IMG/VR virus record: IMGVR_UViG_3300009163_000047
Location: 1-52,896 of that record
Strand: one strand, 5' to 3'
DNA: 52,896 nucleotides
Source: a virus
Below the pieces are notes generated by a model that was not told the DNA's origin, searched no databases, and worked only from the letters and a program-made list of their open reading frames with translations. A program made the position numbers and the translations under genes. Position 1 is the first letter of the stretch. Each line of letters begins with the position of its first letter. Below, in pieces: positions 28,287-41,453 of this stretch.

Positions 28287-28898
28287 ATGGCCGCAAACCC
28301 AAAACACTATGTAAACAATGCCGACTTTCTACAGGCAATCATAGAGTATCGTCTGAAGGTCAAAGAAGCCAAAGAGACCGATAAAGAAAAACCTAGACTG
28401 TCAAACTACATTGGTGCATGTTTCTTGAAGATTGCAGAACATCTATCAAGAAAACCTAACTTCATATCATACTCATTCAGAGAAGAGATGATTTCCGATG
28501 GTATAGAAAACTGCATTCAGTATGTTGATAACTTTGATCCTGACAAGTCTAAGAACCCATTTGCTTACTTCACCCAAATCATTTACTTTGCTTTCTTACG
28601 GCGAATTATGAAAGAGAAGAAACAACTCTATGTGAAGTACAAAGCAACTGAACAATTTGGAATCATGGAAGATGAGTATGATGAAGACACTGGTACAAGT
28701 AGACCATTCATACTCTATGATAACATTTCCGAATTCATTCAGAATTTTGAAGAAAGTAAGAAGAAGAAGAAAGACAAGTCAGCCAATAAAGGCATAGAAA
28801 AATTCATTGAGCCTGAAGATGTTTTATTGGAAGACATTGAAACTATTCCTCTAGAAGAAGTAGAGGCAATCTTGAAAGATTCAGAAAAAAGTTCTTGA
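28287..28898 (+). CDS. 55: Late-transcription sigma factor gp55
   Basis: A 203-residue sigma-70-family protein (T4 gp55 is 185) that directs RNA polymerase to TATAAATA promoters, several of which are present here. Features are LSNYIGACFLKIAEHLSRKP, SYSFREEMISDGIENCIQY and DKSKNPFAYFTQIIYFAFLR, the region 2-like core. The C-terminal part is charged (KKKKKDKS) with LLEDIETIPLEEVEAIL. In T4 it acts with gp33 and the gp45 clamp; the clamp gene is in this window, gp33 is not seen. Confidence 0.94.
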   Translation: MAANPKHYVNNADFLQAIIEYRLKVKEAKETDKEKPRLSNYIGACFLKIAEHLSRKPNFISYSFREEMISDGIENCIQYVDNFDPDKSKNPFAYFTQIIYFAFLRRIMKEKKQLYVKYKATEQFGIMEDEYDEDTGTSRPFILYDNISEFIQNFEESKKKKKDKSANKGIEKFIEPEDVLLEDIETIPLEEVEAILKDSEKSS

Positions 28899-28923
28899 CA
28901 CCTTTATCATTTTTTGTTATACT
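28895..28923 (+). promoter_or_regulatory. Sigma-70-type promoter for gp47/gp46 and the modification genes
   Basis: TTGACA (28895-28900) and TATACT (28918-28923) are 17 bases apart, with an A-tract just upstream. The -10 box ends 8 bases before the gp47 ATG, and no ribosome-binding site is visible, so a leaderless or near-leaderless mRNA is predicted. No other clear promoter or terminator is seen before 36282. Confidence 0.85.
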
Positions 28924-28931
28924 GACAGACT

Positions 28932-30011
28932 ATGAAAATTGCACTCATTAATGATACGCACTTCGGTGCTCGTGGAGACAGTCATGTGTTCAATGACTTC
29001 TTCTTCAAGTTTTGGGAAAACACATTCTTCCCATACCTAAAAGAACACAACATCAAAACATGCATTCATTTGGGTGATGTTGTTGACCGCCGTAAGTTTA
29101 TCAATCACAATATTGCATCTGACTTTCAGAATCGGTTCATGCGTAGATTTTGGGAAGAAGGCATTGACACACACATCTTGATTGGTAATCACGACACCTA
29201 CTTCAAGAACACAAACAAAGTAAATGCAATTCAAAATCTATGCACTTCATATGATGGTGTGAATGAGCCTTTCATCTATGATGACCCTAAAGTAGTTTCA
29301 TTCGATGGTGTTGATATTCTATTGATGCCATGGATTTGTGAAGAGAACTATGATAGAAGTATGTCTCTTTTGAAAGACGCTAAAGTACAATTAGTATTTG
29401 GTCATTTTGAAATCTCTGGCTTTGAAATGGACCGTGGCAATGTGTGCCATGAAGGTCTGAACAGAGATGTGTTTGATAGATTCGATATGGTATTGTCTGG
29501 ACACTTTCATCACAAGTCTTCAGATGGTGTTGTACACTATCTCGGAAATCAATATGAAATCACTTGGGCTGACTACAATGACACAAGAGGTTTTCATATC
29601 TTTGATACAGAGACTCGTCAAATAGAATTCATTCAGAACCCATATAAGATGTTCTTCAAAATTGTCTATGATGACAGTGAACATGATTTTGAATATTGGA
29701 AGAAGTATGATTACTCACAATATCAAGGCACACATGTTAAAGTTATTGTAGTCAATAAACAGAATCCGTATCTGTTTGATACTGTGATTGACAATCTTTA
29801 CAAAGCAGGTTTAGCTGATATCTCTGTTGTTGAAGATTTCACTGAGATAATTATTGAAGATGATAAAGACATTGTAGACCAAGCGGAAGACACAATGACA
29901 ATTCTTTCCAAATATATTGATAATCTAGAACTCAATGTTGACAATGAGAAATTGAAAACATTCATGCGTGAACTTTATGTTGAAGCCTTGAATACAGAAA
30001 ATGTAGAATGA
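28932..30011 (+). CDS. 47: Recombination nuclease subunit gp47 (Mre11/SbcD-like)
   Basis: A 359-residue metallophosphoesterase nuclease (T4 gp47 is 339). The phosphoesterase motifs are NDTHFGARG near the start, HLGDVVDRRKF, IGNHDTYFK, VFGHFEISGF and SGHFHHKS. With gp46 it forms the complex that resects DNA ends for recombination-dependent replication and degrades host DNA. It is probably transcribed from the promoter just upstream and is coupled to gp46 by an ATGA overlap. Confidence 0.96.
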   Translation: MKIALINDTHFGARGDSHVFNDFFFKFWENTFFPYLKEHNIKTCIHLGDVVDRRKFINHNIASDFQNRFMRRFWEEGIDTHILIGNHDTYFKNTNKVNAIQNLCTSYDGVNEPFIYDDPKVVSFDGVDILLMPWICEENYDRSMSLLKDAKVQLVFGHFEISGFEMDRGNVCHEGLNRDVFDRFDMVLSGHFHHKSSDGVVHYLGNQYEITWADYNDTRGFHIFDTETRQIEFIQNPYKMFFKIVYDDSEHDFEYWKKYDYSQYQGTHVKVIVVNKQNPYLFDTVIDNLYKAGLADISVVEDFTEIIIEDDKDIVDQAEDTMTILSKYIDNLELNVDNEKLKTFMRELYVEALNTENVE

Positions 30012-31720
30012 TAATTTTTCGTAAACTCAAATATAAAAACTTCATCTCAACTGGCAATCATTTTACAGAGATTCGTTTTGATGAATTTGAAAACACACTA
30101 GTTGTTGGTGCAAATGGTTCTGGTAAAAGCACAATGCTTGATGGCGTGTGCTTTGCTCTGTTTGGTAAACCGTTTCGTAAAATCAACAAACCGCAACTAT
30201 TGAATTCAATCAACGCTAAAGAATGTGTCGTTGAAGTTGAGTTTGATACAGGCAACAAGTCGTTTAAAATTATTCGTGGTATCAAACCGAATGTGTTTGA
30301 AATCTATCAGAATGGTGAACTGCTGAATCAAGATGCGGCCGCAAGAGACTATCAAGACTTTCTTGAGAAATTTATTCTCAAATTAAATTACAAGTCTTTC
30401 ACGCAAATTGTTCTTCTTGGTTCAGCATCATTCACTCCTTTTATGCAGTTGAGTGCAAATGACCGTAGAGCAATCATTGAAGACTTACTTGACATTCAGA
30501 TTTTCTCTGCTATGAATGGTATTGTTAGGTCAAAGTTATCTGAGAACAAACAAGGTCTTTCAGACAGTAAATTGTTAATCGAATCATCTAATGAAAAGAT
30601 TGCTATGCAAGAGAAATTCATTGCAAGCATGAAACAGAATAATGAAGACAAGGTAACTGAATATGCTAAAGAGATACAAAGTCATCAGAGTACTATACAA
30701 ACCCTATATGGAGAAGTTGCTAACCTCTCCGTACAAGTCGAAACGCATCAAGCAGTTTTGGCAGATAAGATTGTGGTGGAAGATAAACTCAAGAAAATTA
30801 CAAAACTTGAATCGCAAATTGAAAGCACAGTATCCAAATATAGAAAGGATATCAGTTTCTTTCAACATAATGACGATTGCCCAACCTGTAGGCAAACCAT
30901 TGCCATCGGGTTTAAAGAGACGGAGATTGCCAACCTTTCGACCAAGAGTGCAGAGTGTGAACATGGTCTCGAAGAACTAGATTCAAAACTTCAAGGCTTG
31001 CAAAAAGCATTGGTTGAGATAAACAATGTTGTAACCATTGTTCAGCAGTTACAGATAAAAATTGCTACAAACAATAATGCTATTACTGAAACGAACAAGC
31101 AGATTGATAGATTGAATGCTAAAATTGCAGAATTGAAGTCGCCCAAAGATACCACAGATGCTGAAGAATTAGCATTGTCATCTTTGAAACAAACATTGAA
31201 TGACTTGAAGAATCGATTGAAAGTGTTACTTGATGAAAAGACATACTATGATGCCGCATCTATTCTTTTGAAAGACACTGGTATCAAAACAAAAATCATC
31301 AAACAATATCTACCAGTCATCAACAAGTTGGTGAACAAGTATTTGGCTTCGATGGACTTCTTTGTTAACTTCACACTTGATGAGAACTTCAAAGAAACAA
31401 TCAAGTCAAGGCATCGTGATGATTTCACTTATGAATCTTTTTCAGAAGGTGAGAAACAACGAATCGATATGGCACTAATGTTAACATGGCGGGCTGTTGC
31501 TAAGTTGAAGAACTCAGCAAACACCAATCTACTGATACTTGATGAGATATTTGATTCATCATTAGATACAAATGGCACAGATGATTTGATGAAAATTCTG
31601 CATCTTCTTGAAGGTGTGAATCTGTTTGTCATCTCACATAAGGGTGACATACTGCAAGATAAATTTAGAAATATTATTAAGTTTGAGAAAGTCAAAAACT
31701 TTTCAAGGATATCAAAATGA
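30008..31720 (+). CDS. 46: Recombination ATPase subunit gp46 (Rad50/SbcC-like)
   Basis: A 570-residue SMC-type ATPase (T4 gp46 is 560). It has VGANGSGKSTMLDG (Walker A, near residue 35), a long coiled coil with a zinc hook CPTCRQTI near residue 295, a signature SFSEGEKQRIDMALML and Walker B NLLILDEIFDSSLD. It partners gp47 in DNA end resection. Overlapping start and stop codons with the genes on both sides place it in one operon with gp47 and peptide deformylase. Confidence 0.97.
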   Translation: MIIFRKLKYKNFISTGNHFTEIRFDEFENTLVVGANGSGKSTMLDGVCFALFGKPFRKINKPQLLNSINAKECVVEVEFDTGNKSFKIIRGIKPNVFEIYQNGELLNQDAAARDYQDFLEKFILKLNYKSFTQIVLLGSASFTPFMQLSANDRRAIIEDLLDIQIFSAMNGIVRSKLSENKQGLSDSKLLIESSNEKIAMQEKFIASMKQNNEDKVTEYAKEIQSHQSTIQTLYGEVANLSVQVETHQAVLADKIVVEDKLKKITKLESQIESTVSKYRKDISFFQHNDDCPTCRQTIAIGFKETEIANLSTKSAECEHGLEELDSKLQGLQKALVEINNVVTIVQQLQIKIATNNNAITETNKQIDRLNAKIAELKSPKDTTDAEELALSSLKQTLNDLKNRLKVLLDEKTYYDAASILLKDTGIKTKIIKQYLPVINKLVNKYLASMDFFVNFTLDENFKETIKSRHRDDFTYESFSEGEKQRIDMALMLTWRAVAKLKNSANTNLLILDEIFDSSLDTNGTDDLMKILHLLEGVNLFVISHKGDILQDKFRNIIKFEKVKNFSRISK

Positions 31721-32304
31721 GCGATGTACTAGTAATTAACACAAAAGCACCAACACCAGTAATTGAAAGTTTCGAACCATACAATGTGTATGATGAACAT
31801 CTTCCATTACTGAAAATGAGAATGCCTGATTTTAACTTTGTCAATCCACCGATTGATCCAAAGTCTTTGTCGATAAGATTGCTTAGAACATTGAAACATT
31901 ACAATGGTCTTGGTCTTTCTGCAAATCAATGTGCATTACCATTTCGTGTTTTTGTGATGATGCCAGATATCGTTTGTTTCAATCCTCGCATTGTTGAGAC
32001 TGGTCCAGATGCTATTAAGCCTGAAGGTTGTCTTTCTTTTCCAGGAATGACATTGAAAGTTCCTCGGCCTACATATATCATAGCAGAATATGAAGATGCG
32101 AATGGAACTACATTTCAAAAAAGATTTGAAGGCATGACTGCACAGTGTTACATGCATGAGTTAGACCACATGAATGGTGTTCGTTTTATTGAGAAAATCA
32201 GTCAACTCAAACTTCAGATGGCTAGAAAAAAGCAAAAGAAAATGATTGTAGATATTAAAAGAAGATTAGCAACTCAACCCAAAGTTCAGGAAGAAGTGGA
32301 ATGA
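31717..32304 (+). CDS. def: Peptide deformylase
   Basis: A 195-residue enzyme that removes the N-formyl group from new proteins. The three signature motifs are present: GLGLSANQ (Gln71), EGCLSFPG (metal-binding Cys105) and HELDH (His147, Glu148, His151). Bacterial enzymes are usually about 170 residues; here a basic helical tail (ARKKQKKMIVDIKRR) is added. Aquatic T4-like phages often carry this gene. It overlaps both neighbours by 4 bases. Confidence 0.95.
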   Translation: MSDVLVINTKAPTPVIESFEPYNVYDEHLPLLKMRMPDFNFVNPPIDPKSLSIRLLRTLKHYNGLGLSANQCALPFRVFVMMPDIVCFNPRIVETGPDAIKPEGCLSFPGMTLKVPRPTYIIAEYEDANGTTFQKRFEGMTAQCYMHELDHMNGVRFIEKISQLKLQMARKKQKKMIVDIKRRLATQPKVQEEVE

Positions 32305-33392
32305 AAGAATGGCAAAAAGGTTTTGACTTAGATTATCTTAAAGGCTTAGCAAGCAAGTTTGAGAAGTATAACTCACACACTCTAGGTCCTTTTACTCAAG
32401 TAAAGAAGAACAATATTGCAAGTATGCTAGATGATGGCACACTTCATATTCTTTCAGAAGATACACTGATTGAGATATCAGTCTCAAAAACATCTTCACC
32501 AATTACAATGCATGGTAAGACTGTCATTGCAAACAAGAAAAAAGGTGACATTACCTTCGGTAGCATGACTGGTGATGTTGCTGAGTTAGAGAAAAGAATC
32601 AACAACTACACTGAAGATTGTTGGATGTATGTTTGGGCAGAAGATACTGAGATGAATACACTTGCCCATACATGTAATTTCTGCCAAGTAGGTCCGAAGA
32701 TTACCACATTTGGTGAGATGTATATGATATACTACAGAGGAATGGCGAGACCTTTTCCTACAATCGATAAGGCAGAGTATGCATCAATCAAGAAGATTGG
32801 TGATGTGAATCCTGAATTGATTCAAGGAATTTATGAAAAGTTGCAAAAGTTGCCTGCGTTTACAAATCATTACAGTAACTACAATAAAGGTAAATCGTGG
32901 GGTGCATTGTCACTTCGTGGTTATAGACCAGAACCTGAATTTATTACTAAGCCAATTGAGATGAATGATAAATGGAAAGAAGAGAACAAAGATGTTCACT
33001 TCGAATTGCAAGATACTGTATTGTATGATGAGTTTCCTGAAGTTAGAGAGTTGTTAAAAGAGTTTGGTAGTAAAGTTCATCGTGTGAGATTCATGCGTTT
33101 GAAACCTGGCGGTGGAGAGTTGGAGAGACACACTGACCAAGTAGACCCTGACTCTGGTGGTTCACTTGGTAAAGTAGCAAGACTTCATTTTCCAATCAAG
33201 ACAAATGATGATGTTATTTTTACTGTGTGGGGAACAAAAGGTAATGAACAGAAGATTCATATGTCAAAAAATGAGTGCTGGTTTCTTGATACAAGAAAAC
33301 CACACATGGCAGTAAATGGTGGAGATGAAGAAAGAATTCATCTTGTTGTTGATATAGAGACAGAGAAGAATTTGCATGAGAGGATTATATGA
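32301..33392 (+). CDS. 2-oxoglutarate/Fe(II) oxygenase, Asp/Asn hydroxylase-like, with extra N-terminal domain
   Basis: A 363-residue protein. The C-terminal 130 residues carry the double-stranded beta-helix pattern RFMRLKPGGGELERHTD (His277, Asp279), LHFPIKTNDDVIF, KPHMAVNGG (His335) and EERIHLVVD (Arg345). These give the HxD...H iron site and the 2-oxoglutarate arginine, as in the aspartyl/asparaginyl beta-hydroxylase family. Residues 1-200 are a separate region with ITFGSMTGDVAELE and TFGEMYMIYYRG that I do not recognise. It overlaps the PLP-fold gene, which suggests a joint pathway. The substrate could be a protein, a nucleotide or a DNA base. Confidence 0.8.
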   Translation: MKEWQKGFDLDYLKGLASKFEKYNSHTLGPFTQVKKNNIASMLDDGTLHILSEDTLIEISVSKTSSPITMHGKTVIANKKKGDITFGSMTGDVAELEKRINNYTEDCWMYVWAEDTEMNTLAHTCNFCQVGPKITTFGEMYMIYYRGMARPFPTIDKAEYASIKKIGDVNPELIQGIYEKLQKLPAFTNHYSNYNKGKSWGALSLRGYRPEPEFITKPIEMNDKWKEENKDVHFELQDTVLYDEFPEVRELLKEFGSKVHRVRFMRLKPGGGELERHTDQVDPDSGGSLGKVARLHFPIKTNDDVIFTVWGTKGNEQKIHMSKNECWFLDTRKPHMAVNGGDEERIHLVVDIETEKNLHERII

Positions 33393-34276
33393 TATTAAGT
33401 GAAATAACTCCAGTACAATTTTATGATGGTTTGTATTGGAAGAGAGATGATTATTTTAAACCGTTTGGCGAATATCATGTCAATGGTGGAAAAGTAAGAC
33501 AAGCAATTAAAATCTTTGAACACAAATTAGATGAGATTAAAAACAAGTATTCGAATGGTGTTGTGACAGCGGCCTCTGTTCATTCACCACAGTCTGCAAA
33601 CATTGCGAAAGTAGCAAATCATCTTGGTATCAGATGCATATCTGCTGTTGGTGGAACAAAACCTGAAAATTTAGATAAACTTGCTATGATGCGTTTGACA
33701 AAGTACTATGGTTCAGAAATAAGAATTGTAGCAGGTCATGGTATGACAGCCGTGATTCATTCACGAATGAATGATATTGCTAAAGACTTAAATTATATGC
33801 CTATTGAAATGGGTGAGTTGATGGAAGACAATCCAAAAATTATTTTTGAAACGACTGCTGAACAAGTGCAAAATATTCCTGATGAATTAGATAACTTAAT
33901 TGTTCCTTCTGGTGTTGCAATTCAATTGGCAGGCATCTTGATTGGTCTTAAAAGATACAATAAAAAAGTAAAACGCATAGTTAGCGTTTGTGTTGGTCCA
34001 ACAAGAGAAAAGAAAATCGAAGGTTATTTCAACAAAGTTTATAACATGAATATAAATGAATTCACGCCTTTCGAAATGTATGCACATTCTGCGGCATACT
34101 CTAAAGGTTTTGATGTTCAAGTTAATGGTGAATACATTGATGACATTTATGAAGGTAAAGCACATGACTGGATGAAAAAAAATATCGATTACAAAAATGA
34201 AAAGACTTTGTTTTGGGTTGTCGGTAAGAGACCAAGAATTGAAGATGTTGATATGATTATTGGAAATAAATTATGA
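33389..34276 (+). CDS. PLP-dependent fold type II enzyme, ACC deaminase/desulfhydrase-like
   Basis: A 295-residue protein resembling the 1-aminocyclopropane-1-carboxylate deaminase and D-cysteine desulfhydrase family. WKRDDYFKPFGEYHVNGGKV aligns with the usual RDD...GGNK, so Lys35 is the likely Schiff-base lysine. HSPQSANIAKVANHLGI matches the QSNH-type helix, and VPSGVAIQLAGILIGLK replaces the usual glycine-rich phosphate loop (normally GSGGT-like). That loop is degenerate, so the activity may differ from the named enzymes. It overlaps the oxygenase and acetyltransferase genes by 4 bases each. Confidence 0.75.
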   Translation: MILSEITPVQFYDGLYWKRDDYFKPFGEYHVNGGKVRQAIKIFEHKLDEIKNKYSNGVVTAASVHSPQSANIAKVANHLGIRCISAVGGTKPENLDKLAMMRLTKYYGSEIRIVAGHGMTAVIHSRMNDIAKDLNYMPIEMGELMEDNPKIIFETTAEQVQNIPDELDNLIVPSGVAIQLAGILIGLKRYNKKVKRIVSVCVGPTREKKIEGYFNKVYNMNINEFTPFEMYAHSAAYSKGFDVQVNGEYIDDIYEGKAHDWMKKNIDYKNEKTLFWVVGKRPRIEDVDMIIGNKL

Positions 34277-34704
34277 ACTATGCAAAAGAATCAGACATAA
34301 CAGAGATACTGAGTATTTTTAAACCATATAAGAAAGAAGTCTTTCCTTATTTGCGTAAAGATACATTACAAGAAAAGATAAGAAAAAATAATGTAATTTT
34401 TGAAAACGGAGTTGTGATTGTATTTGGAATCTATAAGAAAAAACAAAACATTGGAAACGCAACAGCAATTAAAGGTGATGCATATATTTCAGAAATTGCA
34501 ATCAAAGAACAAGGTTCAGGAAATGCTTCTGAAGTTTTGCAACGATTTTACAAAGATGTAAATACAAATGTTTGGTTGACTGTTAGGTCATCCAATGAAC
34601 GGGCTAGAGCATTCTATATAAAAAATGAGATGAAAGAAGTGGGTACAATTGCTTGGTCTTCAGGCACATTGCTTGGCACAGTTTACAAATATGGAATATT
34701 ATGA
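34273..34704 (+). CDS. GNAT-family acetyltransferase-like protein
   Basis: A 143-residue protein with the GNAT layout: an N-terminal helix (MNYAKESDITEILSIF), a strand ISEIAIKEQGSGNASEVL in the place of the acetyl-CoA loop, and the C-terminal segment TVRSSNERARAFYIKNEM followed by KEVG. The loop is poorly conserved: EQGSGNA stands where R/Q-x-x-G-x-G/A is usual. It sits between the PLP-fold gene and the methyltransferase, overlapping both, so it probably acts on the same product. The acyl donor and substrate are unknown. Confidence 0.7.
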   Translation: MNYAKESDITEILSIFKPYKKEVFPYLRKDTLQEKIRKNNVIFENGVVIVFGIYKKKQNIGNATAIKGDAYISEIAIKEQGSGNASEVLQRFYKDVNTNVWLTVRSSNERARAFYIKNEMKEVGTIAWSSGTLLGTVYKYGIL

Positions 34705-36281
34705 ATTATTTTTATGAAAAAAATCGTGAGTTACTAGAATCGAATGTCAATAAGACATTTGAAGAAGTGCTTTGGATGACAAAAGATGAATTTCGCCAAT
34801 GGGTGATTGACCTTCGTAAGACTGTTGTCGAGTTATGGGATGAGAAAGGTCAGCCGCCTAGAGTTGGTTATGATGAGCATGAGATTGTAAAACAATTCAA
34901 TGAGATGACTTCTTTTCCTGTACATAAATTTCTTGTAAAAGATGAATTGACAAATCAAGAAGATGTGATTCGAAACACAAGCGTGATTGGTAATGCTGTT
35001 AATCAGTGGTTCCCAACAATGATGAAGACTCGCATCAACTACACCAAAGATGTGAATAAAGGTAAATCGATTTATGATTACTTTGCTAAAGATGAATTGC
35101 TTGATACCTTTGTCACATATGCAAGTAGACACTTCAAAAGAGATTCGTTCTATCATTACTCAGTACCGATTCAGATTGGTGCGATACTTAAAATTGGCTC
35201 AGTTACAGTTCAAGTAAACTCTGCAAAAGAATTCGTTGAATGGTTCGAAAGTAAAGAAGGTCGTGGTTTAGACACACATGACTATTGGCTCGAATCGACT
35301 GAAGAAGATAAAGAGTATACTGGTTACAATGAAGAGTTGAAGAACAACAAATACATCACACTCACTCGTGAAGAGATTGACACTCTTCCAATACCGAAAA
35401 ATTGTATTACAAACATCGAATACAAAAACGCAAGCATGTTTAGAATTAGACTCTTTGAAAAAGGACAAAAACTTTATCCGATTGGATTGAAAGCCTTCCG
35501 TGTTTCTTTCTGTCAATATGCTGTAAACTTTCCACCATTGACTGCGAAATATCTCTATGAACGATACACTGAAAAATTTAAAGACCAAGACCAAATCAAT
35601 ATTTACGATCCATCTTCTGGTTGGGGTGGCCGCTTGCTCGGTGCTCTTTCTATTGATGATGAGCGTAATATACATTATATCGGAACAGACCCTAATAGAG
35701 ACCATGATACCACAACCGGTCGTACAAAGTATCACGAGTTCGCCGATTTCTTTAATACAAAAACTACAAGAGCAATAGGAACACTGTTCCCAAAAACACA
35801 CACATATGAAATATTTCAACATGGCTCTGAAGAGATTAGCAAAGACCCTAAGTTTCAGAAGTACAAAGGTAAGCTAGATTTAATCTTTACCTCACCACCA
35901 TACTTTGCGAAAGAGGCTTACTCTGAAGATGAAGAACAGTCATACAAAAAGTTCTCTCAATACGATTTGTGGCGAGAAGGTTTTCTTCGTAAGACACTTG
36001 AGACTTGTGTAGAGTACTTGAAGAATGACAGGTATCTGTTATGGAATATTGCAGATGCAGTTTTCGATGGTGACATGTTACCACTTGAACAAGACTCAAT
36101 GGACATTCTAACAAGTCTTGGTATGCAGTATCAAGGTAAGTTGAAAATGTCTCTTGCACAAATGCCAGGTGGTAATCGAATCGATACAGAAACTGGATTA
36201 CCAAAAGCAAAAAACTTCTGTAAAATTAAAGGTGATATGTGGTTGAAATATGAACCGATTTTCATATTCTACAAACCATGA
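34701..36281 (+). CDS. SAM-dependent methyltransferase with SPPY motif and large N-terminal domain
   Basis: A 526-residue protein. The C-terminal half has a Rossmann SAM-binding motif YDPSSGWGGRLLGA (302-315) and the catalytic FTSPPYF (396-402) of amino-methyltransferases that act on adenine N6 or cytosine N4. About 280 residues precede it and match nothing I recognise (for example SFPVHKFLVKDE, YHYSVPIQIGAILK). I start it at 34701, where the ATG overlaps the previous stop. A TTG at 34653 is in frame but would overlap the acetyltransferase gene by 52 bases. No partner restriction enzyme is seen. Confidence 0.8.
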   Translation: MNYFYEKNRELLESNVNKTFEEVLWMTKDEFRQWVIDLRKTVVELWDEKGQPPRVGYDEHEIVKQFNEMTSFPVHKFLVKDELTNQEDVIRNTSVIGNAVNQWFPTMMKTRINYTKDVNKGKSIYDYFAKDELLDTFVTYASRHFKRDSFYHYSVPIQIGAILKIGSVTVQVNSAKEFVEWFESKEGRGLDTHDYWLESTEEDKEYTGYNEELKNNKYITLTREEIDTLPIPKNCITNIEYKNASMFRIRLFEKGQKLYPIGLKAFRVSFCQYAVNFPPLTAKYLYERYTEKFKDQDQINIYDPSSGWGGRLLGALSIDDERNIHYIGTDPNRDHDTTTGRTKYHEFADFFNTKTTRAIGTLFPKTHTYEIFQHGSEEISKDPKFQKYKGKLDLIFTSPPYFAKEAYSEDEEQSYKKFSQYDLWREGFLRKTLETCVEYLKNDRYLLWNIADAVFDGDMLPLEQDSMDILTSLGMQYQGKLKMSLAQMPGGNRIDTETGLPKAKNFCKIKGDMWLKYEPIFIFYKP

Positions 36282-36337
36282 TGTTGTAAAAATACAACAA
36301 AAAAACACTTGACAGGACTTCGGTTCTATTGTATACT
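36282..36337 (+). promoter_or_regulatory. Palindrome plus sigma-70-type promoter (copy 1)
   Basis: TGTTGTA-AAAA-TACAACA (36282-36299) is a perfect 7-bp inverted repeat, followed by an A-run, TTGACA (36309-36314) and TATACT (36332-36337), spaced 17 bases. The transcribed start GTAGTCTGATTAGTTGA is nearly the same as at two further promoters. The palindrome recurs before the CobS-like gene, so it is a candidate operator. The A-run rather than a T-run after it argues against a terminator. Confidence 0.85.
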
Positions 36338-36366
36338 GTAGTCTGATTAGTTGAAAAGGACTCTGT

Positions 36367-36561
36367 ATGCCCATTACTTCCCTTGATGAATTGCTGATTT
36401 CTAACGAAATGCAATTATCGTTTGTGACTATGGATGTGATTCAGTTAATTGAAAACCAAGGTATTCAAACTTTTCTTTGTCAACTTTTGTCTCAAAAACC
36501 TGAGTTGAGAGAAGAACTTTCTGCTTACTTGACAAGCACTGCCGATTGTGCTATACTGTAG
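36367..36561 (+). CDS. Small protein upstream of the VWA gene, unknown
   Basis: A 64-residue protein (MPITSLDELLISNEMQ..., ending TADCAIL) behind AAAGGA, with a good promoter upstream. It is mildly acidic and mostly helical, with no known motif. Its last codons contain the promoter of the next gene. It has the same regulatory signals as the VWA and ATPase genes, so it may belong to the same function. Confidence 0.55.
   Translation: MPITSLDELLISNEMQLSFVTMDVIQLIENQGIQTFLCQLLSQKPELREELSAYLTSTADCAIL
36529..36557 (+). promoter_or_regulatory. Sigma-70-type promoter for the VWA protein (copy 2)
   Basis: TTGACA (36529-36534) and TATACT (36552-36557) are 17 bases apart, inside the end of the small gene. 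The following GTAGTTTGATTGATTGA repeats the start of the other two promoters' transcripts. This copy lacks the upstream palindrome. Confidence 0.85.
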
Positions 36562-36586
36562 TTTGATTGATTGAGATACATACATT

Positions 36587-38899
36587 ATGACAAATTTTTC
36601 TGTTGAATCCAAATCCCAGTTGGCAAAACTGATGGCGTCAGAGGACTTGCAAGTTGTCCATGCGCCTGTTCAGACTGCATCTTTTGATTTGAAATCTCGC
36701 ACACTTACTTGCCCTATCTGGAAAGATATGGATGGCGACACTTATGACCTTTTACTAGGACATGAAGTTGGTCATGCATTAGAGACACCTGAAGAAGGTT
36801 GGCATGGCGCCACTTCATCTAAAGGCAAAAACTTCAAACACTTTTTGAATGTGATTGAAGATGCCCGTATTGAAAAGAAAATCAAACGCCGTTATCCTGG
36901 ACTTCGTAAATCGTTTGTCAATGCATACAATGGACTTTTCAATAAAGGTTTCTTTGGTGTTAAAGAACATGAAATCGATGGTCTGTTTTTTATCGACCGT
37001 TTGAATCTCTATACAAAATCTAGTTATACTCTTCCCGTCAAATTCAATGATGAAGAATCCTTGTTGGTCAAGGAAGTAGAATCATGCGAAACATGGGAAG
37101 ATGTTGTCTTTGTTACTGAAAAAATCTTCGGTTTCTCAAAAGATGAACAGGACAAAGCTAATGAAGAAGCCGCCAAAAAGTTGAAAAAACAAATGGCTGA
37201 AGAAGGTGAAGGTGAAGAATCTGATTCCGAATCCAGCGATGATGATTTTGATTATGATGAACCTGAAGAAGATTTTGGTGGTTCTACTGAAAGTGATTCC
37301 GACTCTGAAGATAATGATGGCACTGATAAATCTGATGCTGATACTTCTGGCAATGGTGATTATGAATTTGATGAATCTTCCGATGAAGAAAATGATTCTG
37401 AATCTGAAGACTCTGATGTTGGCGCCGCCATTAATCGTTATAAAGAATCTGCTGAATCTTATAAGCAACCAGTTTGCAAAACTGATGAAGAGTTTCGCCG
37501 TAATGAAAATTCACTGTTAGATGAAAAATCTAAAAGATATGTCTATGCAAATGTTCCAACCGCAAATTTGCAAAACATTGTAACACCTGCCAATCGTGTT
37601 AACGAACAAATTCTGAATCACTATTCAGACCACTATCCTAATCTGAGTGGTCAAAAATTGTTGAATGAATTCCGTGCCAAGAATGACAGATACATTGGTC
37701 TGTTGGCTAAAGAATTTGAAATGCGTAAAGCCGCAAAATCATTCTCTAAATCTAAATTGTCGAACACTGGTGATATCGATATCAGCAAAATCTACAATTA
37801 CAAAATTGATGACCAAATCTTTCGTAAGGTTATGAGAGTGCCAAAAGGCAAGTCTCATGGTCTAGTGATGTTGGTTGACAAGTCTGGTTCTATGTATGAA
37901 AACATGGCTGGCACTATTGAACAATTGTTGATTCTAGTTTCCTTCTGCCGCAAAGTGAATATTCCTTTTGTTGCATATGGTTTCGGTGATGAAACTAGTG
38001 TTCGTAAATTAGATTTTCCAAATGTTGACATTTACGATAGAAACACTAACAAACAATTCACCAGCAATAATGGTGAATTGGCTCTGAGTACTGTTTTCTT
38101 GCGTGAGATGATTAATTCTCGCATGAGTGCTTCCGACTTTAATAAAGCAATGATTGCTATGGTAATGTTGATGCATTCATATACAAAATCAAATGGTTAT
38201 CGTAACAGGTTCCGTCTTCCAGAAAGTGAATCATTATCGAACACACCATTGAATTCTGCTTTGGTTGCACTGAAACCTATTGTTGAAAATTTCAAGAAAG
38301 TGAACAATATTGAAATTTCAAACATCATCATCATGCATGACGGTGATTCAGATTCTTGTAATGCTGTTCACAATGAAACTTATTATGATAGATTCTACTC
38401 TAATGATAATCTCATTTTGCGTGAACAAAAAAGTAAATTTCAGACTAAAGTTCCAATCAACGAATATCGTGGAGTGACAATTAGTCTCATGGAAATGTTG
38501 CAACAAACAACCAATTCAAAAGTTGTTGGTTTCTACATAACTACTTCAAAAAATAGTGCAATTAAAAATGCTGTTTACAAGTACTATGAAAATGAAAAAG
38601 GTGAGAAGTTGATGGAGAGTAATAATGTTCCACAACACATATACAATCAAAAAATGTTTGAGGCTGGTGAATTAGGCAAAGTGATGCGTAAGCAAAAATT
38701 TCTTGAATCATATACCAAAGGCTACAATCGTTTCTATTTGATTCCTGGCGGCTCTGAGTTATCTGTTGAAGAAGATTCTATTGAAGTTGAAGGCAAGATT
38801 ACATCCAATAAACTTGCTACCGCTTTTATTAAATTCTCTAAAAAGAAACAAGTGAGCCGTGTCCTTGTCTCAAGATTTATCGAACAAATTGCAGTCTGA
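36587..38899 (+). CDS. CobT-like protein: metalloprotease-type HExxH domain, acidic linker, VWA domain
   Basis: A 770-residue protein. Near the N-terminus is LLGHEVGHAL (His59, Glu60, His63), and VIEDAR at 89-94 could supply a third zinc ligand, as in gluzincin proteases. Residues 205-278 are a strongly acidic Asp/Glu/Ser linker. From about 423 a von Willebrand factor A domain has the metal-site motif VMLVDKSGSM (DxSxS, 431-435). This layout resembles the CobT subunit of cobaltochelatase, with the CobS-like ATPase next door. No cobalamin pathway gene is visible, so the pair more likely remodels or cleaves proteins or loads a metal. Target unknown. Confidence 0.8.
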   Translation: MTNFSVESKSQLAKLMASEDLQVVHAPVQTASFDLKSRTLTCPIWKDMDGDTYDLLLGHEVGHALETPEEGWHGATSSKGKNFKHFLNVIEDARIEKKIKRRYPGLRKSFVNAYNGLFNKGFFGVKEHEIDGLFFIDRLNLYTKSSYTLPVKFNDEESLLVKEVESCETWEDVVFVTEKIFGFSKDEQDKANEEAAKKLKKQMAEEGEGEESDSESSDDDFDYDEPEEDFGGSTESDSDSEDNDGTDKSDADTSGNGDYEFDESSDEENDSESEDSDVGAAINRYKESAESYKQPVCKTDEEFRRNENSLLDEKSKRYVYANVPTANLQNIVTPANRVNEQILNHYSDHYPNLSGQKLLNEFRAKNDRYIGLLAKEFEMRKAAKSFSKSKLSNTGDIDISKIYNYKIDDQIFRKVMRVPKGKSHGLVMLVDKSGSMYENMAGTIEQLLILVSFCRKVNIPFVAYGFGDETSVRKLDFPNVDIYDRNTNKQFTSNNGELALSTVFLREMINSRMSASDFNKAMIAMVMLMHSYTKSNGYRNRFRLPESESLSNTPLNSALVALKPIVENFKKVNNIEISNIIIMHDGDSDSCNAVHNETYYDRFYSNDNLILREQKSKFQTKVPINEYRGVTISLMEMLQQTTNSKVVGFYITTSKNSAIKNAVYKYYENEKGEKLMESNNVPQHIYNQKMFEAGELGKVMRKQKFLESYTKGYNRFYLIPGGSELSVEEDSIEVEGKITSNKLATAFIKFSKKKQVSRVLVSRFIEQIAV

Positions 38900-38902
38900 A
38901 AG

Positions 38903-38958
38903 TGTTGTAAAAATACAACAAAAAAAGACTTGACAAAAGGTAGATTTTGAAGTATACT
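38903..38958 (+). promoter_or_regulatory. Palindrome plus sigma-70-type promoter (copy 3)
   Basis: TGTTGTA-AAAA-TACAACA (38903-38920) is identical to the palindrome at 36282. It is followed by TTGACA (38930-38935) and TATACT (38953-38958), spaced 17 bases. The start of the transcript, GTAGTTTGATTAATTGA, matches the two other promoters closely. It drives the CobS-like ATPase gene. Confidence 0.87.
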
Positions 38959-38993
38959 GTAGTTTGATTAATTGATGTTGAAAGGTTTTTATT

Positions 38994-40190
38994 ATGTCTA
39001 GAAGTGATAACCGTGATAAGTTTTTGAGTTTGATTGCCGCTACTGGTCAGACCAGTATCACAATTAAAGAAATAGTAACAATTTGTGATGCCAACGGAAT
39101 GAAAATTCCGCAATGGTTTACAAAAGAAGAAGAGAACCGCCTTGGTCGTGGTTTGTATAAAGTTCCTAATACGATTGTGGCTCCAGCATCCACTGCACAA
39201 GTGAATCTGACTGCACAAGTTTTGCAGATGCCAGTACAATCACCTGCACCTAGTACAATGCAAAAAATTACAAACCTTGTCACTGACATGGAACAGATGA
39301 ATCTGGTTCCTACTCTGTATTCAAATTATGTTCCTTTTGGTAACTTTGAAGATTTGAATCGTATCATCGGTTCGAATAAATTCTATCCTGTGTTTATCAC
39401 TGGTCAATCTGGTAACGGCAAGACCATGTCCGTTGAACAAGTGTGTGCAAAATTGAAACGCAAATTTGTTTGTATTTCAATGACTCCTGAAACCGATGAA
39501 AGTGATTTGCTCGGTAACTATGTTTTGATGAATGGTGAAATGGTATGGCGTGATGGTCCTGTAACTGTTGCGGCTCGCCAAGGTGCTGTTTTGTGTATCG
39601 ATGAAATTGATTATGGTGCTCAAAACCTTTCATGCCTTCAGCGTGTCCTTGAAGGCAAGCCGTTCCTTTTGAAGAAGAAAAATGAAGTGATTGCGCCTGC
39701 CGCAGGTTTCACTATCATTGCTACTGCAAATACAAAAGGTAAAGGTTCAGATGATGGTCGTTTCATGTTCACCAATGTTATGAACGAAGCCTTCCTTGAA
39801 CGATTCCCAATTACTTTCGAACAAGGTTGGGCTCCTAACACTGTTGAAAAGAAAATTGTCAAAAAAGAATTGTCGAGTGAAGGTCGTGCCGATGATGAAT
39901 TTGCTGACAACCTTGTTACATGGGCTGATGCAATTCGCAAAACCTTTGAAGATGGTGGTTGTGATGAAGTGATTTCTACTCGCCGCCTTGTGCATATTGC
40001 GAAAGCATATGGTATCTTTGGTGACCGTATCAAAGCAATTCAGTATTGCCTGAATCGTTTCGATGAAGATACGAAAGCATCCTTCCTTGACTTGTATACC
40101 AAAGTGGATGCAAGTGTGAATATGTCTAACACTGTTCCTGAAGTGACGGTACCTGCACCTTCATACAAAGGTGATGAAGTTCCTTTCTAA
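38994..40190 (+). CDS. CobS/MoxR-type AAA+ ATPase
   Basis: A 398-residue ATPase of the type annotated CobS in aquatic T4-like phages. Walker A is GQSGNGKT (137-144) and Walker B VLCIDEID (199-206). ATANTKGKG follows as sensor 1, and VISTRRLVHIAKAY near 320 resembles sensor 2. Residues 1-100 are a helical and proline-rich N-terminal part. In bacteria CobS works with CobT to insert cobalt. Here a CobT-like VWA protein sits just upstream under a matching promoter, so the two probably form one AAA+/VWA machine. The physiological target in the phage is unknown. Confidence 0.88.
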   Translation: MSRSDNRDKFLSLIAATGQTSITIKEIVTICDANGMKIPQWFTKEEENRLGRGLYKVPNTIVAPASTAQVNLTAQVLQMPVQSPAPSTMQKITNLVTDMEQMNLVPTLYSNYVPFGNFEDLNRIIGSNKFYPVFITGQSGNGKTMSVEQVCAKLKRKFVCISMTPETDESDLLGNYVLMNGEMVWRDGPVTVAARQGAVLCIDEIDYGAQNLSCLQRVLEGKPFLLKKKNEVIAPAAGFTIIATANTKGKGSDDGRFMFTNVMNEAFLERFPITFEQGWAPNTVEKKIVKKELSSEGRADDEFADNLVTWADAIRKTFEDGGCDEVISTRRLVHIAKAYGIFGDRIKAIQYCLNRFDEDTKASFLDLYTKVDASVNMSNTVPEVTVPAPSYKGDEVPF

Positions 40191-40637: not shown

Positions 40638-41453
40638 ATGGAAATACAAGTTAAAGTTGAAGATTTGAAAAATCACAAAGTGTTTATTGCAACACCAATG
40701 TACGGAGGTATGGCTCATGGGATGTATATTAAATCCTGTTTAGACTTACAAACTACATTAGGTAAATATGGAATCGAAACTAAGTTTTCTTTTCTATTCA
40801 ATGAATCACTAATCACTCGTGCAAGAAATTATTTGGTAGATGAATTTCTTCGCTCAGGCTACACCCATTTACTTTTTATCGATTCTGATGTACACTACAA
40901 TCCAGAAGATGTAGTTGCACTGTTAGCATTAGATAAAGATGTTATTGGTGGACCATACCCTAAGAAATCTATCAATTGGGGTAATGTTGCAGAGGCGGCT
41001 CGTAAACATCCTAACATGAATCCTCGTGAACTAGAGAAACTTGTTGGTGAATATGTTTTCAATGTTGTGAAAGGAACTTCACAATTTCAAGTAACAGAAC
41101 CACTTGAGGTGATGGAGATTGGTACTGGCTACATGTTAGTTAAGCGCCATGTGTTCGATAAGATGGCAATCGAATATCCAAATATCAGATACAAACCTGA
41201 CCATGTTGGACAATCGAACTTTGATGGTTCAAGATACATTCATGCTTACTTCGATACAGTAATCGATTCGAAAGAGTCAATCACTGGTGGTGGCACAGAC
41301 AGATATCTTTCAGAAGATTATATGTTCTGCCAAATGTGGCGTAAGATGGGTGGTGAGATTTGGTTATGTCCATGGATGAAAACTCAGCATATTGGAACAT
41401 ATGCCTTCACTGGTGACATGCCTAAAGTAGCTGAACTTACCGGTAAACTATGA
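40638..41453 (+). CDS. Glycosyltransferase, GT-A type
   Basis: A 271-residue protein. The start of the fold is KVFIATPMYGGM, the metal- and nucleotide-sugar-binding motif is LLFIDSDV (Asp82, Asp84), and LITRARNYLVDEFLRSGYTH and IGGPYPKK follow the pattern of GT-A transferases in T4-like phages. LSEDYMFCQMWRKMGGEIW near the end is a typical acceptor-side segment. Substrate unknown: it could decorate phage DNA, virion proteins or the host surface. It overlaps the next gene by 4 bases. Confidence 0.78.
   Translation: MEIQVKVEDLKNHKVFIATPMYGGMAHGMYIKSCLDLQTTLGKYGIETKFSFLFNESLITRARNYLVDEFLRSGYTHLLFIDSDVHYNPEDVVALLALDKDVIGGPYPKKSINWGNVAEAARKHPNMNPRELEKLVGEYVFNVVKGTSQFQVTEPLEVMEIGTGYMLVKRHVFDKMAIEYPNIRYKPDHVGQSNFDGSRYIHAYFDTVIDSKESITGGGTDRYLSEDYMFCQMWRKMGGEIWLCPWMKTQHIGTYAFTGDMPKVAELTGKL

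Follow-up and report, generated by a model that had tools for sequence, protein, structure and literature searches.

Which substrate is acted on by the enzymes of a compact four-gene locus is the question raised by positions 32301-36281 of the IMG/VR virus record IMGVR_UViG_3300009163_000047. The window, meaning the whole stretch of DNA that was analysed, is a virus contig of 52,896 bases with T4-like gene content. In a previous reading of the letters without database searches (the sequence-only reading), the four genes were regarded as an undescribed cassette recalling the hypermodification of DNA bases in phages. The gene run was confirmed with its coordinates and successive 4-base ATGA overlaps:

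32301-33392, + strand: OXY, 363 aa (Pfam Asp_Arg_Hydrox)
33389-34276, + strand: PLP, 295 aa (Pfam PALP; phrog_3650)
34273-34704, + strand: GNAT, 143 aa (Acetyltransf_1 near the cut-off)
34701-36281, + strand: MT, 526 aa from the ATG at 34701 (Pfam N6_N4_Mtase)

The locus is best explained as a modular, amino-acid-type DNA hypermodification system of T4-like environmental phages, which is anchored by MT and is not based on 5-hydroxymethyluracil (5hmU); the probability of this explanation is estimated at roughly 0.6. The core idea of a DNA-base modification pathway was supported, whereas the fixed cassette and a plain 5hmU pathway had to be corrected. DNA hypermodification is favoured because of the families of the PLP enzymes, the position of an OXY homologue by a gene of the amino acid:DNA transferase (ADDT) family, and the co-occurrence of the genes, reordered, in unrelated lineages.

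Exchange of accessory genes around MT

MT relatives were common in environmental phage contigs: 218 were confirmed in one scan and at least 584 were found in a wider one. The interval between gp46/peptide deformylase (PDF) and MT contained GNAT; OXY; a short OXY with GNAT; OXY with X1, a second PLP enzyme; X1; X1 with an unknown protein; OXY, PLP and GNAT; or nothing. When the loci were retrieved by OXY similarity, MT was located within 8 kb in 61 of the 62 with enough sequence, and with X1 similarity the corresponding count was 67 of 69. In the 130 non-redundant groups of MT, X1 was present in 67 and GNAT in 26, and never both in the same group (Fisher p of about 2e-10, with phylogeny ignored). 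The GNAT-MT association is biased because it rests on MT-anchored loci, and an independent survey by GNAT similarity resulted in one match only. In the mapped gene neighbourhoods OXY and X1 are nearly always near MT, whereas the full OXY-PLP-GNAT-MT set was present in few loci and other combinations in most. The idea of a fixed four-gene cassette was rejected, MT being the constant gene and OXY, X1 or PLP, and GNAT being modules that can be exchanged.

The exchange was resolved to the base in close relatives. The nucleotide identity of the L116 contig with the window was 94% from 28287 to 33392, ending exactly at the OXY stop, after which X1 follows; the similarity restarts at 34688, 13 bases before MT (91% over the remaining 344 bases of the contig). 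The MT of L035 is 96% identical to the MT of the window, yet L035 carries X1. PLP and GNAT are precisely swapped for X1 in close relatives. X1, OXY or GNAT was each also seen alone directly before MT, mostly 0-6 bases away, which suggests that MT would make the anchor and that each accessory should be able to use the MT product directly.

The same gene types co-occur, reordered, in unrelated lineages without gp46/PDF. The determined orders were MT-PLP (L023, L351 and L378, with a D12 adenine methyltransferase after PLP in L351), MT-FemAB-like-PLP (L354, L358), MT-PLP-GNAT (L026), MT-OXY-PLP-N6/N4 methyltransferase (L374) and ParB-MT-GNAT (L370). PLP also adjoins ParB-like and radical S-adenosylmethionine (SAM) genes beside packaging-type genes, and the radical SAM protein next to PLP shares phrog_13321 with a radical SAM protein of Sphaerotilus phage SN1. 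The DNA-acting proteins among these neighbours favour DNA as the substrate.

Clusters of ParB-like, radical SAM and fold-type II PLP genes by packaging-type genes were observed in the phage contigs L013, L014, L017 and L034. The searched contigs of L013, L016 and L017 gave no match to ADDT or to HMUDK_hel, the helical domain of the 5-hydroxymethyldeoxyuridine (5hmdU) kinase, and the cluster may be another hypermodification system without a 5hmU front end.

Among the annotated phages of the searched collection, none had the gene set (GNAT 0 matches, OXY 4 distant, MT 24 partial), so it appears to be new within this collection. The system recurs in well over 100 separate contigs of environmental phages, which, together with its interchangeable modules, predicts several unknown DNA bases.

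Properties of the enzymes and the proposed pathway

OXY matched Asp_Arg_Hydrox (PF05118, E 5e-14, residues 190-353), and H277, D279, H335 and R345, the residues picked out in the sequence-only reading, were invariant among diverse homologues, corresponding to the HxD...H iron triad and the 2-oxoglutarate (2OG) arginine. The predicted structure was confident (predicted local distance difference test, pLDDT, 93). The profile, the fold, the iron triad and the 2OG arginine of a PF05118-type 2OG-Fe(II) oxygenase were all found in OXY. The best PDB matches were L-proline cis-4-hydroxylase (4p7w) and a nucleoside-antibiotic beta-hydroxylase (7v4f), with a sequence E of 2.5e-6; the substrates of these enzymes are free amino acids or intermediates of biosynthesis. 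They are the nearest structural and sequence relatives of the catalytic half of OXY, which is set apart from both by a GNAT-like domain in residues 1-150, for which hhalign showed homology to the standalone GNAT proteins (96%, E 4e-9). The long N-termini of OXY and MT, previously described as unexplained, were of the right sizes, but that of OXY is now accounted for by this domain. The relatives with a short OXY of 200 aa lacking the GNAT-like part carry a separate GNAT gene alongside, suggesting a gene fusion or fission that ties both functions together.

PLP is a fold-type II pyridoxal phosphate enzyme (PALP, PF00291, E 3e-11, above the cut-off), and the column of Lys35, at the position of the Schiff-base lysine as predicted from the sequence, was invariant across homologues. 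The enzyme falls into phrog_3650 (1e-44), as do its counterparts in Vibrio phage D506 and Pseudomonas phage Cygsa01; 347 annotated phages matched it, their hosts being mostly Salmonella, Vibrio, Klebsiella and other enterobacteria. X1, likewise of fold-type II, was assigned to phrog_7093 (1.5e-28), the family of SN1_023 (2e-160; hhalign of SN1_023 with X1, 97.4%). A gene of the SN1_023 family sits in the thymidine hypermodification cassette of phages SN1 and M6 (PMC9476957). According to the phrog_3650 and phrog_7093 memberships, both alternative PLP enzymes are from families of DNA-hypermodifying phages. The reaction of the related phage PLP enzymes is, as we take it, decarboxylation, and PLP decarboxylation and acetylation steps are presumably part of the M6 and ViI pathways.

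In the case of GNAT, the profile matches stayed below the cut-offs, just under it with Acetyltransf_1 (0.0023) and under the curated one with NCBIfam RimI (6e-7). The GNAT layout proposed for this protein is suggested by the RimI score and by a CoA-type loop, QGSGNA (Q/RxxGxG/A), read by eye.

MT consists of a SAM-dependent, DNA methyltransferase-type part (about 270-526) and an N-terminal domain (1 to about 260) conserved within the family. The former matched N6_N4_Mtase (PF01555, 1e-6, residues 393-488) and the profiles of N4-cytosine/N6-adenine DNA methyltransferases, including the MTase_II models. The motifs of the sequence-only reading were correct: motif I (D303..G307-G309-R311) and S398-P-P-Y401-F402 were invariant among homologues, and the same residues were invariant in a second alignment except for the nearly invariant G309. 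The model was confident (pLDDT 89; predicted template modelling score, pTM, 0.87). The structural matches in the PDB were generic class I methyltransferases, and the top named viral fold matches were mostly N4-cytosine or other DNA methyltransferases. Motif I, SPPY and the class I fold of SPPY-type methyltransferases are all present; methyl transfer itself is predicted. A hidden ADDT or 5hmdU kinase in the N-terminus was rejected (hhalign probability below 1%). Two MT-family genes per locus were observed in L256 (in tandem) and in L258 and L259 (flanking a clamp-like gene), which suggests paired specificities.

In the proposed pathway, a base in the DNA of the phage would be the target of MT, which would install the anchor there, most likely on the exocyclic amino group of an A or a C. 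PLP or X1 would then alter the amino-acid part of the substituent, GNAT would acylate an amine, and OXY, as a GNAT-oxygenase fusion, would hydroxylate a carbon. Differing subsets of modules would lead to differing final bases, presumably evading host restriction. A more speculative step concerns the product of MT. The loci with a sole accessory would imply that this product bears an alpha-amino acid on which the PLP enzyme, the amino-acid hydroxylase and the acyltransferase can each work. A PLP enzyme would have no use for a methyl group, so that MT may attach a unit of amino-acid type. It is conceivable, though doubtful, that MT is not a methyltransferase and that it moves the 3-amino-3-carboxypropyl group from SAM, or a different amino-acid unit by means of the N-terminal domain, onto an exocyclic amine of a DNA base. 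If so, amino-acid-modified bases could arise in DNA by way of MT without 5hmU, kinase or ADDT.

Alternative explanations and the surroundings of the locus

The locus could also be a 5hmU-derived thymidine hypermodification system like those of M6 or ViI, with the front-end genes elsewhere in the genome. The PLP families are shared with M6/ViI, and the window is a 53-kb fragment of its genome. Among the components of an M6/ViI-type pathway, the same-family PLP enzyme was found (phrog_3650; phrog_7093 for the X1 of relatives), but the hydroxymethylase, kinase and ADDT were not. None of the tested contigs with the cassette, among them 11 of 143-179 kb, contained the dUMP/pyrimidine hydroxymethylase (PF00303), and HMUDK_hel (PF18723) and ADDT (PF18724) were detected in 0 of these 11, whereas SN1, D506 and Cygsa01 have all three. 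PF00303 was found in the same searches also in the contig of L030, and ADDT in the Mycobacterium phage LilMcDreamy. ThyX was present in all five large cassette contigs tested. The absence of the front end from the large relatives, with positive controls in place, indicates that the system is not simply another 5hmU pathway, and this alternative is very improbable. The determined absence covers recognised families only, the completeness of the contigs being judged by size, and Tet_JBP (PF12851) had no match in any genome searched, control genomes included, and hence no positive control.

Both of these restrictions weigh against the hypermodification system proposed here, as do several properties of the locus that would be expected if MT were a conventional N4-cytosine/N6-adenine anti-restriction DNA methyltransferase and its neighbours independent auxiliary metabolic genes in a post-gp46 hot spot, with no joint pathway. 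Many phages carry MT alone (no accessories in 19 of the 130 sequence groups), MT resembles type II methyltransferases by its models and N4-cytosine-type ones by fold, and unrelated metabolic-looking genes (glutamine synthetase, SET domain, sugar enzymes) are inserted in the same interval of relatives, so part of the MT-accessory association could be due to a gene-insertion hot spot. Furthermore, the co-occurrence counts ignore phylogeny, and no PDB relative of the N-terminal 260 or so residues of MT was found by sequence search. On the other hand, OXY and X1 were almost never without MT in the scans anchored on them, the reordered combinations occur in lineages where gp46/PDF is lacking, and both PLP enzymes derive from phage DNA-hypermodification families. 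A conventional methyltransferase without a joint pathway is therefore considered unlikely, although it deserves to be taken seriously. It is less probable still that the cassette uses amino-acid chemistry on a non-DNA target, such as a tRNA, a protein of the phage or its host, a nucleotide or a surface polymer. Enzymes acting on proteins are found in the Asp/Arg-hydroxylase, GNAT and PDF families, tRNA or protein can be the substrate of NPPY/SPPY-type methyltransferases, and the PDB matches of MT are generic. However, DNA methyltransferases make up most of the profile matches of MT and of its fold matches to named viral proteins, ParB, D12-class and N6/N4 DNA methyltransferase genes adjoin MT or PLP in other lineages, and an OXY homologue adjoins ADDT.

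The features surrounding the four genes in the window were as follows:

28895..28923, + strand: sigma-70-like promoter TTGACA-N17-TATACT upstream of gp47 (an 11/12 consensus match only)
28932-30011, + strand: gp47, recombination nuclease subunit, upstream anchor (named from the sequence and by the sequence-only reading)
30008-31720, + strand: gp46, recombination nuclease subunit, upstream anchor (named in the same way)
31717..32304, + strand: PDF, upstream neighbour (PF01327, 2e-27)
36309..36342, + strand: promoter-like TTGACA-N17-TATACTGTAGT just past MT

gp47/gp46 recur upstream of the locus in nearly all relatives with enough sequence. The order of gp46 and PDF ahead of the cassette was as previously read, and the PDF-OXY junction is likewise an ATGA overlap. 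Some relatives that keep OXY-X1-MT are without PDF, which is probably outside the pathway. Three exact copies of TTGACA-N17-TATACTGTAGT were found in the window (36309-36342, 36529-36562, 38930-38963) compared with 0.06 expected by chance, two of them within a 73-bp imperfect repeat (36282-36354 / 38903-38975); they are likely a shared phage promoter class. The predicted promoter at 28895 likely starts a transcription unit upstream of gp47, and the site at 36309 may mark its downstream end; the two are consistent with a putative single unit that extends from gp47 through MT.

The nearby "glycosyltransferase" (40638) and dNMP kinase (41450) of the sequence-only reading are real genes but are not counted as parts of the cassette, as they recur whatever accessories are present. 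A dedicated glycosylation by the gene at 40638, which recurs with every cassette type, was not supported. Downstream of MT, most relatives keep a protein of 770 aa whose VWA-like region has no Pfam match (36587-38899) and, after it, a MoxR/CobS-like AAA protein (38994-40190). Glutamine synthetase is the direct neighbour of MT in a number of environmental T4-like phages (L235, L242 and related loci), with a thioredoxin/glutaredoxin-like N-terminus in L235, and in others (L227) a SET-domain gene is located ahead of gp46. X2, a protein of about 340 aa between X1 and MT (L064:3492-4511, L205:3968-5017), had no clear Pfam/PHROG match and is glycosyltransferase-like by eye.

Comparison with known DNA modification systems

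The N4-cytosine/N6-adenine SPPY DNA methyltransferases (PF01555, phrog_498, phrog_12517) share motif I and SPPY with MT. MT differs from them by the family-specific N-terminal domain of about 260 aa without a detectable relative and by its frequent partnership with enzymes of amino-acid chemistry.

Amino-acid-type DNA hypermodification as such is already known, and the known cases (M6, ViI) start from 5hmU. A thymidine hypermodification cassette of Pseudomonas phage M6 and Sphaerotilus phage SN1 was reportedly described by Lee et al. in 2021. Its phrog_7093 PLP enzyme is of the same family as X1 of the close relatives, and its enzymes sculpt an amino acid on DNA. To our knowledge, the enzymes listed for M6 and ViI do not include an amino-acid hydroxylase. 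Hydroxymethylase, HMUDK_hel and ADDT are missing from the large cassette contigs tested, which have instead an SPPY methyltransferase and often an Asp/Arg-hydroxylase. The M6/SN1 genes comprise a pyrimidine hydroxymethylase, a 5hmdU kinase, two aGPT-Pplase/ADDT-type proteins and a radical SAM protein (PMC9476957).

The 5-hmdU-derived bases have been described as typical of Ackermannviridae (PMC8472413). The ViI-type phages of this family, with 5-(2-aminoethoxy)methyl-dU, have a phrog_3650 PLP enzyme like that of the window, at about 28-31% identity. The two tested, D506 and Cygsa01, contain a dUMP-hydroxymethylase-type thymidylate synthase, HMUDK_hel and ADDT, unlike the cassette contigs, and neither was among the matches listed for MT.

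In LilMcDreamy, gp4 is an OXY homologue (27% identity over 66%) with the same catalytic residues and part of the GNAT-like N-terminus. It adjoins gp3 (ADDT, 3e-12), gp2 (weak Tet_JBP, 0.002) and gp1 (annotated as ParB-like). A role of gp3 (L004:1784-2665, annotated as hypothetical) as a PLP enzyme was rejected, as it matches ADDT; gp2 (L004:855-1787) is annotated as a queuine tRNA-ribosyltransferase, and weak Tet_JBP was its sole Pfam match. No MT or PLP match was found in the gp1-gp4 region, which uses ADDT and possibly a TET/JBP-type oxygenase, unlike the cassette.

The locus thus pairs known PLP families with phages apparently without 5hmU chemistry, the SPPY methyltransferase being constant and an amino-acid hydroxylase being added. 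If correct, the proposed system bears on the diversification of phage DNA against restriction and on new DNA-modifying enzymes. Laboratory tests of the prediction are already feasible, as parts of the system are carried by cultured phages, namely the OXY homologue with ADDT by LilMcDreamy and an MT-family gene by Vibrio phage 2.058.O. Compared with the known amino-acid-type hypermodifications, the methyltransferase anchor, the Asp/Arg hydroxylase, the swappable PLP modules and the lack of 5hmU genes appear to be new within the searched data.

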